Origin: Scytalidium lignicola
Lineage: Eukaryota; Ascomycota; Leotiomycetes
Direction of reading: 5' to 3'
Assembly: GCA_002812745.2 (NCBI GenBank)
Contig: NCSJ02000158.1
Location: 1-64,000, forward strand
DNA: 64,000 bases
The notes under the pieces were generated by a model that worked only from the letters and a program-made list of their open reading frames with translations, had not been told where the DNA came from and did no database searches. This document shows positions 1,062 to 36,818 of the stretch, piece by piece (the stretch's first letter is position 1; every line of letters starts with the position of its first letter). The position numbers and the translations under genes are program-made.

Positions 1062-2923
1062 ATGGAAAACTTGTTTAGTAAACCCGTGATCTTGACGAGG
1101 AGTGACATATTGAAATATGGTATCCCAACCACTGTCTTTTTGACATTCAACGTAAGTCCAACATCTCTCACATTTCCGAGAGTTATTGTGCAAAATAATA
1201 AATATTTGTCTAACTTATTCTCTCTTGAAATCCAGCTCATTGCATTTATTGTATATCGAATATTTTATCATCCTCTAGCTCGTTACCCAGGCCCTCTCAT
1301 TTCAAAGATCACTGGGCTTTACCATACGTATCATGCACTAACCTCAGACCAAGCACACAACTTTTACCACCTTCATGCTAAGTACGGCCCAATTGTCCGG
1401 TACACTCCAAACGGGGTGAGCATCTGCTCAGTTGAGGGTATTAAAGCCATTTATGGCAACAGTCGCAGCACCAAAAAGGCTGAATCCTACTTGGCCTTCC
1501 CTCGCGATCCTAAGAAAGCCAGCTTATTTTCCGTTATCGACAAAGACGTGCATGCAAGGAAACGGCGAATCTTCCGCCATGGCTTCACGGATGCTTCCTT
1601 GCAGATGGCTGAGAGAACCATCGACAAGCATATTGCCTCGCTCGCTGAGTGTTTGATGAGCGAAGAACCCGACAAAGAGAACCTTGCCCAAAAGTGTACG
1701 CCGGACCGCAAAGAAGGCTGGAGTCGTCCACGGAATATGGCGACCTGGATCAACCGATTCACCTTCGACGTTTCTAGCGAGCTCTCATTTGGAAAGAGCT
1801 TCGGGGTGCTGAAAAACAAGACCAATCGCTTTATTATTGAGATCACGCATAGCACGCTGCAGGCAGACAATGTCGTATGTCGATCTTCTCCCGTCTTTAT
1901 TCAGAGCGAGTTCTCATGATGGTGAAAACTCCCACAGACCGCTTCAGCCATCACCCTTCTCCACAAGCTGGGGCTTAAAAAACTGGTTTTCCGACGGGCC
2001 AGACAACTAAATTCCATATTTGACAGTTTTATTCGAGACGCTACTAGTGAACGAGTCGAAGCCGGAATATCTGAAAACCGCAAAGACTTCTTCCACTGGC
2101 TCATGGATGCCCAGGACCCCGAAACGGGTGAAAGGTTTGAATTCGAGGAACTGTGCGAAGAAGCCACATTACTCATCACCGCCGGTAAGATTCCTGATCG
2201 AACAAGACTTATTAGTAAAGATCTCTTAACTTGCAACCAGGAAGCGATACGTCTTCCACTGCCATCTGTTCGACTCTTTACTACTTAGCCCACAACCCTG
2301 AGAAGTTGGAAACCTTGATCAAGGAGATCCGAAGCGCCTTTCCAACTCTGGAATCTGTCCGTTCTGGCATCACGCTGCAAAATTGCAGCTATCTCCGAGC
2401 CTGTATGGACGAAGGCCTTCGGCTTTCGCCACCTGCCGGCTCGGTACTACACCGTGAAGTTCTTCCCGGCGGCTTGTCCATCAACGATAATTTCTTTCCA
2501 GAAGGAACGGACGTCGGCGTACCAGCTTACGCACTGCACCATGACGCTGCATACTTTGAGCGCCCATTTTCTTTCGAGCCCGAACGATGGATTGTTGGGT
2601 CACAGCTGAGCCAGGATGAAAAGTCCGGAGAGAAACCCTCCATTGTTACGCCAGATTCTGTTCGTCTAGCTGCAAGTGCTTTTGCGCCCTTTAGTGCCGG
2701 CAGCAGAGGTTGTGTGGGTAAGCCATTAGCATACTTACAGATCTCCTTGTTGTTCGCCCGGCTCCTTTGGGAGTACGATATGCGATTGTATGCGGGCGCT
2801 TGGATTAATGGAAAACGCAGTGGAGATGGAAAAGAACCTTTAAAGGAATATGCTTTGGTGGACTTGTTCATTAGTTGGAAGAATGGTCCACTGTTGGAAT
2901 TCAGACGTCGTAGTGTTGAGTAA
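1062..2923 (+). CDS. Cytochrome P450 monooxygenase (P450-1), intact
   Basis: This is a haem-thiolate monooxygenase, expected on the ER membrane. I read four exons: 1062-1151, 1236-1874, 1938-2184 and 2241-2923. All junctions are GT-AG and in phase, giving about 552 residues, the normal P450 length. After a hydrophobic N-terminal anchor comes the proline hinge (YHPLARYPGP). The I-helix oxygen-binding motif AGSDTSST is built across the third intron. The K-helix ExxR is in DEGLRLSPP, then PERW, then the haem loop FSAGSRGCVGKP with the Cys ligand. The start at MENLFSK is chosen because an upstream in-frame Met (1005) would only add a poorly motivated leader. It ends tail to tail with BCAT-1. The family resembles fungal secondary-metabolism P450s; an oxidation of the fatty side chain is plausible, but the substrate cannot be read from sequence. 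Confidence 0.93.
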
Positions 2924-3285
2924 GTAGTCAGATGGCATGTCTCAATAGCTTCGCAGAGACAAAGAAAAGATCGAGTGGCATGGTGGTATCTCCGCAAACT
3001 AGCAAAGATGTTTCAAGAGTTATAGCAGTTGTACCATAGTGGACCTAAAAATCCCGGCTAAATTGGATAGGCTCACGTGGTTCGAGGGCGTAAATATGCA
3101 GGTTCTCCATGTTAGATGAGGGATTGTTAAAGCAATAGTCTCGAATTGAGTGCTCTCCACACAGAGTCGATCCTAGTTGTAACTCTCCCTGCTTTTCAAA
3201 ACCTACAAAATCTACAAAACAGGCTACTTGTATTTTCCAGACTATCTTCCTGTTTACAATCTAGTCGTTGCCGGATTACGTAGCT
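2924..3285. other. Convergent intergenic region P450-1/BCAT-1
   Basis: These 362 bases lie between two converging genes and should hold both 3' untranslated regions and poly-A signals. I see no coding potential or repeat in them. Confidence 0.6.
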
Positions 3286-35100: not shown

Positions 35101-36818
35101 ACTAGTTGGGTGCCTCGTGCACCATAGCGGGCATATATCATCTGGAAGTATCGTGCTACAGAGGAGGAAAAACTGCTTGTAGCAACGACAACTTTGGCTC
35201 CACCACTGATGAGTCCTTGAAGAATCTCGGTCCCAATGGAGCCGCGTCCTGCACCGGTCAATAACACACATTTGCCACGAAAAGAAATACCAGTGTCTCT
35301 GGTCTGTCTTAAAACGTCCATATATTTCCTTTCAAGTACCGCATCTTTGATCCACCCATGTCTTCCTCTTTTCTTGAACTTAAACTTGAACGGCGGAAAG
35401 GCGATCGTGACCGGCTCTAGCTTGATGACCCCATCCGTGTAGCCATTTTCTAGAGTGTATTGCTTCTTGATCTCTACTGGACGAGGTACTTCGCTGTATT
35501 TTAATTTGCCTTGTTCGTCGATGGTGGTACGAGGGGCTGTGAGTATAGAAATGCTCTTAAAAACAGGAGGCTGATTAAGACTATGTTGACACTGCTGAAG
35601 GAGACTTAATAACAAGATTCTGAGCGATTGCTCTGTCTTAAAGCCGCCTCTCAAGGTAATGTCTATGATATATTGAATAGATTTGATGAGCGTAGGCGTT
35701 GAACGATTCACAATACTAAGCGAAAGTTGAGAAACAGTTTGGTCCGTTATATCAAGTCGACCTGATTCGATGCCGAAAACTAGAATCATGAGGTCTTGCA
35801 ATGTCCAATTCCAAAAGGAATCGTAGATCCTGGCCTTTTGGATCGAGAAGCTAGGTTGGATTCCAGAAGTGAAGGACTCTCCTAGCTCGGCATTCAACTG
35901 GAATAATTCTGCCTTGAGTTCTTCAATGGTTTTTCTTGAGCTTACTAAAGCTCTTTCTCCTTCCTGTTGATCAACCTTGAGGAACCTCGCATACGCTTCC
36001 ATCAATACTCTTGATAAAATCCTCTGGTCGTCCGTGAGGGCTGCCATAGCCTTAGCGTCTAAAACCACCGCATTGCCCTGCACTTCGCTTGATCCAGCCA
36101 TCGGTCCACTGGAAGGTAGTGCAAGGCCACTATTGTGAGCGTATTTCTTGACCACATCATCTAAAAACAGATTTGCAGCCTCATCCGATACTATTCGGGA
36201 TGGGGGTTGCATTGTTGTTGCGAATACAAGTGCGCCATCCTGTCGACCAGTCTGAAAGCCCCAGCGAGTCTCCAAATAACTCCGGACCAGACCAACGCCC
36301 ATACCGGCTGGCATCTTAGATAGTACCATACGTGCAATCATCGAAGATGTGTGCTTGCCCAACCGCTGATCAGATGGCATGTGTATGGACTCACAAAGTT
36401 CCAGAAGGGACAATTCCTCTTGGTTTTCAGGGAACGTAGGAAATTCATTGCCAAGATCTCCAATAATCTCATTCTGTAACGTGGATCTACCTACAACATT
36501 GTCAGACTAGATACAACAATTAGTTCCTACCTTGCCCGGGAACAGGGGTGAGCATGGGCAAAACTAACCTCCTACAAGACTTTTGATTGATCTGCCCACC
36601 TGGATCTCAGTTACTGGCTTTTTGAGTTTCTGTGCAATAACTGCCGTCACAATTTCAATGGCAGATATGGGTACGTCTGATAGAAGGCTAACCTGTACTG
36701 AAGAGCTATCATTTCGAGAAGGGGTGGATATAGGGACTTCTGATACGGCGACGGGCTTCAGAGAAGACGGAGTAGTAGTAGGGATAGCAATTGCGGCTGA
36801 GTGATGGCTAATACAACT
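32120..36818 (-). pseudogene. Fatty-acid synthase alpha-like subunit, 5'-truncated and frameshifted
   Basis: This subunit carries acyl carrier protein (ACP), ketoreductase and ketosynthase domains. The first visible exon (about 36818-36569) has a Ser/Thr/Pro linker and the ACP start VPISAIEIVTAVIAQ. After a 78-bp intron the main exon (from 36490) has the pantetheinylation site GRSTLQNEIIGDLG, then RLGKHTSSMIARM, the reductase (VLLTGAGRGSIG, catalytic Tyr in GLYAESK) and the ketosynthase Cys in KTPVGACATSIES. The His motifs SMHGTSTV and LTGHPKGAAGAWM follow. At a run of ten A (T at 32950-32959) the frame shifts, though the protein continues normally after it. No start codon exists: an in-frame stop at 36821-36819 precedes the linker and the AT-rich island follows, so the first ~100 residues are missing. 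It ends at LLNPNARFQ, before the usual phosphopantetheinyl transferase domain, as in some secondary-metabolite FAS subunits. Confidence 0.87.

Follow-up and report, generated by a model that had tools for sequence, protein, structure and literature searches.

Introduction

The HC-toxin locus TOX2 of Cochliobolus carbonum uses a fatty acid synthase (FAS) subunit and a branched-chain-type aminotransferase to make a 2-amino fatty acid, and the toxin inhibits histone deacetylases (HDACs) of the RPD3 class (PMC8102738). The apicidin F cluster of Fusarium fujikuroi likewise contains a FAS alpha subunit, an aminotransferase and two cytochrome P450s (PMC4109984). Here we describe a run of twelve genes on contig C64 of Scytalidium lignicola that has this toolkit and also carries two class I HDAC genes. 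The window analysed is bases 1-64000 of the contig, which has 96,216 bases in a genome of 46.85 Mb and 664 contigs. The reading we favour, with modest confidence and from sequence alone, is that this locus is all or part of a cluster for a medium-chain 2-amino acid such as occurs in cyclic tetrapeptides that inhibit HDACs, with altered copies of its own HDAC targets placed within it.

The locus differs from each of these systems. In PMC8102738 the HC-toxin locus has a FAS beta subunit, whose alpha partner is described as unidentified, and a non-ribosomal peptide synthetase (NRPS), whereas C64 has both FAS subunits, a trio of isopropylmalate synthase (IPMS), isomerase and dehydrogenase, and two HDACs; PMC4109984, unlike PMC8102738, mentions a FAS alpha subunit for HC-toxin. 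The apicidin F gene table has an NRPS, an MFS transporter and a regulator, and no HDAC or IPMS trio (PMC4109984); C64 has the HDACs and the trio, with no NRPS condensation domain on the contig and no transporter or regulator in the frames scanned. A third likeness is to AM-toxin, where AMT5-8 comprise a transaminase, an IPMS, an aconitase and an isopropylmalate dehydrogenase that lengthen a 2-oxo acid by one carbon (PMC8102738). The C64 trio resembles this and the echinocandin HtyA-type homologation, but the excerpted descriptions of those pathways include no FAS pair or HDAC. The first-pass annotation had read this run of genes as making an HDAC-inhibiting side chain related to those of HC-toxin and apicidin. 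Set beside those clusters, this holds for the FAS, branched-chain-type aminotransferase and P450 toolkit (PMC8102738, PMC4109984); the IPMS trio and the HDACs depart from it.

An extra copy of the target within a fungal cluster is already known as a form of self-resistance, for mycophenolic acid (IMPDH) and fellutamide B (a proteasome subunit) among others. C64 differs from the cases treated with FunARTS in having two different paralogues, one HOS2-like and one RPD3-like, together; of the 13 FunARTS cases the single HDAC entry, depudecin, scored a core hit only and neither duplication nor proximity (PMC10320164). Inhibitor-resistant HDAC activity has been seen in HDAC-inhibitor producers, and for self-protection of C. 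carbonum a 2008 review notes that a protecting factor has been proposed as well as a resistant enzyme (PMC2442719). Literature titles and abstracts, with subscription papers outside the scope, gave no account of this locus or of paired HDACs in one cluster, and both class I HDAC types together with FAS and an IPMS trio are undescribed in the titles and abstracts searched.

We advance more tentatively, as something a little short of probable, the idea that a producer using a FAS-plus-homologation route is protected by two matched HDACs within the cluster, both modified as targets, of which one stands in for HOS2 and the other for RPD3. If true, target self-resistance would here take a dual-paralogue form, and the survival of HDAC-inhibitor producers would have an answer. 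Altered copies of both class I types would allow a direct enzyme test and name pocket positions for comparison in other producers, and the locus would be marked as a likely HDAC-inhibitor source in which two precursor routes, FAS and leucine-type homologation, are joined in one place.

Gene content of the cluster

Pfam scans of open frames place the twelve genes in an adjacent run from about 1.0 to 36.8 kb of the window, so that the gene content given in the first-pass annotation is fully recovered. In order along the contig they are:

990..2923, plus strand: P450 no. 1 (PF00067 in two open frames, 31.3 and 136.3 bits)
3334..4586, minus strand: branched-chain-type aminotransferase no. 1 (Aminotran_4, PF01063; spliced alignment to no. 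2, N-terminal exon outside the model)
5149..6608, minus strand: HOS2-like class I HDAC, 463 aa, one intron (Hist_deacetyl, PF00850, 247.5 bits; gene model)
7148..8593, plus strand: branched-chain-type aminotransferase no. 2, B7463_g7745 (Aminotran_4, PF01063; model 97% identical to the deposited protein)
8890..11990, minus strand: aconitase-family isomerase, isopropylmalate isomerase-like, outer borders approximate (Aconitase, PF00330 in 9601-10977, 116.7 bits)
12390..14271, plus strand: isopropylmalate synthase-like, B7463_g7747, start approximate (HMGL-like and IPMS_D2; PF00682, PF22615)
14904..16500, minus strand: isopropylmalate dehydrogenase-like, outer borders approximate (Iso_dh, PF00180 in 15196-16077, 234.5 bits)
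17742..24086, minus strand: FAS beta, borders approximate (Fas1-AflB-like_hel, FAS_meander, SAT, Acyl_transf_1)
25648..27757, plus strand: RPD3-like class I HDAC, 591 aa, three introns (Hist_deacetyl, PF00850; gene model)
28340..29243, plus strand: short-chain dehydrogenase/reductase (SDR), start approximate (PF00106/PF13561 in 28436-29005 and 28923-29240)
29593..31530, minus strand: P450 no. 2, 5' border approximate (PF00067 in 29596-30237, 146.2 bits)
32120..36818, minus strand: FAS alpha (Fas_alpha_ACP, FAS_I_H, ketoacyl-synt, Ketoacyl-synt_C)

The cluster carries two additional class I HDACs

A search of the genome for HDACs gave 12 matches in eight loci. With type names assigned from sequence resemblance, the gene models comprise an HDA1-type (C299), a HOS3-type (C78), HOS2-types on C241 and C64, and RPD3-types on C443, C653, C184 and C64. 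Both cluster copies have the HDAC domain, the catalytic dyad, the zinc ligands and the closeness to RPD3 or HOS2 that mark class I enzymes. Over 390 residues they share 48.7% identity, and the claim of two distinct class I HDACs in the first-pass annotation therefore stands, one being HOS2-like and the other RPD3-like. The cluster HOS2 (its model 100% identical to B7463_g7744) is 61% identical to the C241 HOS2, and the cluster RPD3 about 70% identical to that on C443, the most canonical RPD3; the two are extra copies beside these genes. As to the surroundings of the other RPD3-types, that at L005 (C653:134338-135231) lies near an amino acid permease with an Aminotran_4 gene about 8 kb away, and that at L006 (C184:53945-54801) has a P450 about 3 kb away, close to the end of the contig.

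Inside the cluster both HDAC genes are flanked by biosynthetic genes. With eight loci in 46.85 Mb, about 0.006 HDAC loci are expected per 36 kb, and it is unlikely for this reason that the two came together by chance.

Further insight comes from the residues that line the HDAC pocket. We used HDAC2 numbering and the 14 positions that contact vorinostat, bind zinc or form hydrogen bonds in the HDAC2-vorinostat table row of PMC8810932. The catalytic residues and zinc ligands H145, H146, D181, H183, D269 and Y308 are kept in both cluster HDACs, but 3 of 28 contact positions are changed, one in the HOS2 copy (H33E) and two in the RPD3 copy (P34N, F210Y). The four other class I HDACs of the genome show no change at 56 such positions (Fisher p 0.034, for sequences that are non-independent and a residue list sought in the literature after the pocket changes had been seen). 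Among 118 fungal HOS2 homologues (P0002-P0120 without P0086, a mammalian HDAC2, from the best 120 of 7994 matches) 5 of 1650 cells differ, all of them L276I, with gaps in two more cells; against the 3/28 of the cluster this gives p 0.0002 under the same provisos. In the alignment, the residues of yeast RPD3 at 34 and 210 are P and F.

The cluster copies are altered at adjoining residues, 33 in HOS2 and 34 in RPD3, which we take to be at the entrance of the HDAC pocket. H33 and F155 form an aromatic pocket, and F155 and F210 the tunnel walls (PMC10746130). Two further positions of the RPD3 copy, 103 and 153, carry W and G respectively.

The number of changes does not set these enzymes apart. 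At 126 positions conserved across the HOS2 rows, HDAC2 and the C443 protein, departures number 4 in the cluster HOS2, 4 in the C241 HOS2, 5 in the cluster RPD3, 7 in C653 and 8 in C184 (one of these a model gap), with none in C443, which is part of the definition. By departure count the cluster HDACs are unremarkable, and only the location of their changes is distinctive. Pocket changes combined with intact catalytic residues fit altered-target self-protection. The earlier suggestion that the HDACs protect the producer thus gains some weight, in that both are extra genes and both have pocket changes, as altered-target protection would predict.

HDAC-fold enzymes can also work on small molecules, and the two proteins, with their catalytic residues intact, might instead be tailoring amidohydrolases that deacylate an intermediate. 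We regard this as very improbable: the identity to chromatin HDACs is high (the values to the C443 RPD3 and C241 HOS2 given above), and two paralogues for one small step would be unparsimonious.

Phylogeny adds the following to the history of the pair. The branch of the cluster RPD3 is the longest of the four RPD3-types of the genome (0.47, versus 0.17, 0.24 and 0.37). The best matches of the C241 HOS2 are three metagenome HOS2 proteins (67-71% identical), and those of the cluster HOS2 come from lichen-forming and related fungi (up to 68%). A quick tree set the cluster HOS2 apart from the other HOS2 of the genome, which raised the question of a horizontal origin, but constraining the cluster HOS2, C241 and the three metagenome rows to group together gave a better tree (p-AU 0.719, for a group picked after the tree was seen), and we set that idea aside. 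By this test the tree does not reject a shared origin of the two HOS2 genes.

The biosynthetic genes suggest two precursor routes

The cluster IPMS is 49% identical to the housekeeping copy of the same genome (contig C659), and PF08502 (LeuA_dimer) is absent from its domain listing. In a tree of 121 rows, with relatives taken from the best 120 of 7997 matches, it lies outside a clade of 84 that holds the C659 copy. The remaining 37 rows on its side of the branch include htyA and gloH of echinocandin producers; several long branches meet near the cluster IPMS, and its exact place is unsure. The closest relative among the matches listed is P0122, 73% identical and situated on a 10.6 kb metagenome contig, while gloH is 48% identical. 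Judged by these sequence comparisons, the cluster IPMS is distinct from the housekeeping copy.

This bears on two alternatives. The grouping of IPMS, isomerase, dehydrogenase and aminotransferases could be an extra leucine pathway that guards against an inhibitor of leucine synthesis, the other genes being unrelated. We find this scarcely credible, as the IPMS without a listed LeuA_dimer falls outside the housekeeping clade and as the FAS and HDAC genes would be left unexplained. Alternatively, the product could have nothing to do with HDACs and be a lipopeptide or a homologated amino acid of an echinocandin- or AM-toxin-like kind, with the HDACs as passengers or as chromatin regulators of the cluster. 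In line with this are htyA and gloH among the IPMS relatives, the same trio plus transaminase in AMT5-8 (PMC8102738), and a cluster HOS2 that is overall as conserved as that on C241. On the other hand, two different class I HDACs amid biosynthetic genes are improbable by chance, and both are changed at contact positions that are otherwise nearly invariant; we consider this alternative unlikely.

The genome has three FAS alpha/beta pairs, on C66, C62 and C64. That on C66 is taken as primary, since its alpha and beta genes adjoin and its per-residue match to solved fungal FAS is the strongest. Of the three beta subunits, that on C64 has diverged most (about 40% identical to the C66 copy and 36.5% to the C62 copy), and the C64 alpha subunit is likewise one of three in the genome. 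The two C64 aminotransferases are 52% identical to each other and keep the pyridoxal phosphate lysine motif GSAKVGGNY. Among the best 120 of 2995 matches many are relatives at 57-64% identity in ordinary fungi and one is named TOXF (P0345, Teratosphaeria destructans); the aminotransferases therefore give no specific tie to HC-toxin.

A plausible scheme, if the locus makes a 2-amino acid of the HDAC-inhibitor type, is that FAS alpha and beta supply a short or medium acyl chain, whose alpha carbon would be converted by one P450 and the SDR to give a 2-oxo acid. The IPMS/aconitase/dehydrogenase trio would add single carbons to the same, or another, 2-oxo acid by leucine-type homologation, the two aminotransferases would yield the amino acid or acids, and the second P450 would act as an oxidase of the chain terminus. 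The amino acid would then be built into a peptide by an NRPS, encoded on C62 or else in the left flank that is missing from the assembly. In such a scheme, with the genes presumably co-regulated, the HOS2-like and RPD3-like copies would replace the two class I types during production, keeping catalysis and thus chromatin control while altering the contacts with the inhibitor. The same genes could also work in two lines, FAS and one aminotransferase making one residue and the trio with the other aminotransferase making another.

A second cluster on C62, and points against the proposal

Contig C62 (96.8 kb) has, at about 31.5-80 kb (L019-L023), a second cluster with FAS alpha and beta, an aminotransferase, a P450, an ABC transporter and a four-module NRPS. 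In the NRPS the A, T and C domains number four each, with the final C domain terminal and divided over two frames, and the aminotransferase is 51-55% identical to the C64 pair. In gene content C62 is nearer than C64 to the HC-toxin/apicidin make-up, and it may be a peptide-making partner of C64 or a separate cluster. Also present on C62 are a PALP-type enzyme, pieces of ABC transporter, a 4HBT_2 protein, an asparagine-synthase piece and a Tc3-type transposase.

It could therefore be argued that C62 makes the HDAC-inhibiting peptide and that C64 is a separate or partner locus, the source of a second unusual residue and the site of the protective HDACs. The C62 gene set, together with the absence of any C62 match in the genome HDAC search, would suit this arrangement. 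Against it, a single pathway would have no need of two FAS pairs, and the copies have diverged (36.5% for FAS beta, as above); we judge it quite unlikely. Among other NRPS contigs as possible partners, C252 has a sidD-type domain, and C600, C358, C505 and C58 have fragments or single modules, and none was retained; C17, C421 and C413 were outside the detailed look.

A number of observations weigh against a C64 cluster for an HDAC-inhibitor residue with its own resistant targets. C64, broken at its left in a transposon, has no NRPS condensation domain, and the 20 open frames scanned at 1-37 kb (smaller frames being outside the scan) include no NRPS, transporter or regulator, while the more HC-toxin-like cluster on C62 is the one without an HDAC. 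The SDR frame is interrupted, falling into two frames that overlap near 28.92 kb, which may reflect an assembly error, an unmodelled intron or a broken gene. The RPD3 copies on C653 and C184 are outside any recognisable cluster, and RPD3 duplication is therefore common in this genome. The pocket substitutions are few in number, and the comparison with 118 rows set the cluster RPD3 copy against HOS2 proteins, few RPD3 proteins having been compared. The C653 RPD3 has near-pocket changes of its own (C105S, A152G), and position 103 carries little weight because its acidic residue is lost in the C64 HOS2, C653 and C241 as well as in the cluster RPD3.

Nor does overall divergence help, since median identity to the 118 homologues is 61% for the cluster HOS2 and 59% for C241 (in a set retrieved by searching with the cluster copy) and departures at 160 conserved HOS2 positions number 4 and 5 respectively; the cluster HOS2 is no more diverged overall than C241, so the original HOS2 is not identified by this measure. 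We had considered the long end branch of the cluster HOS2 (0.57) as a sign of fast evolution but dropped this, as the tree path to C241 is longer still and C241 shows no greater closeness to the HOS2 of other fungi. Finally, later work on C. carbonum favoured the protecting factor over the resistant enzyme (PMC2442719).

Flanking regions

Two features bound the cluster:

1..201, plus strand: terminus of a dispersed DNA transposon whose inverted ends are about 135 bases long, at the contig break
36819..42000, no strand: AT-rich gap at the right end of the cluster (G+C of 0.31 in 36-38 kb and of 0.28 in 38-40 kb, compared with about 0.45)

The transposon end has 41 matches listed in the genome, itself included, with 40 of 111 candidates scored; paired termini lie about 2.4 kb apart, and from our own reading of the target site it probably inserts at TA. 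As the assembly stops at this terminus, the left border of the cluster may lie beyond the contig, and the leftward extension that the first-pass annotation had looked to for an NRPS and a transporter ends here. A candidate left neighbour is contig C116, at whose end lies the opposite terminus of such a transposon (133/136 bases); the likely TA target site is uninformative and we do not claim adjacency. No condensation domain was matched on C116, and ten frames in its last 9 kb include a purine-type permease, a polysaccharide deacetylase, and FAD-binding and berberine-bridge-type pieces.

A tRNA search and Rfam at the gathering threshold gave zero matches in the window. The frames scanned to the right of the AT-rich gap belong to genes of ordinary cellular function (polymerase-eta type, GRIP, lunapark, kinase, Brr6, Med26, Nup54 and others). 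In the set of 10 frames that includes Brr6, Med26 and Nup54, 3 are without a match and one, lying about 43 kb beyond the right end of the cluster, encodes a fungal transcription factor. There is a second strongly AT-rich stretch at 52-54 kb; together with that at 36-40 kb it has a G+C of 0.28-0.35, and both are perhaps repeats decayed by point mutation.

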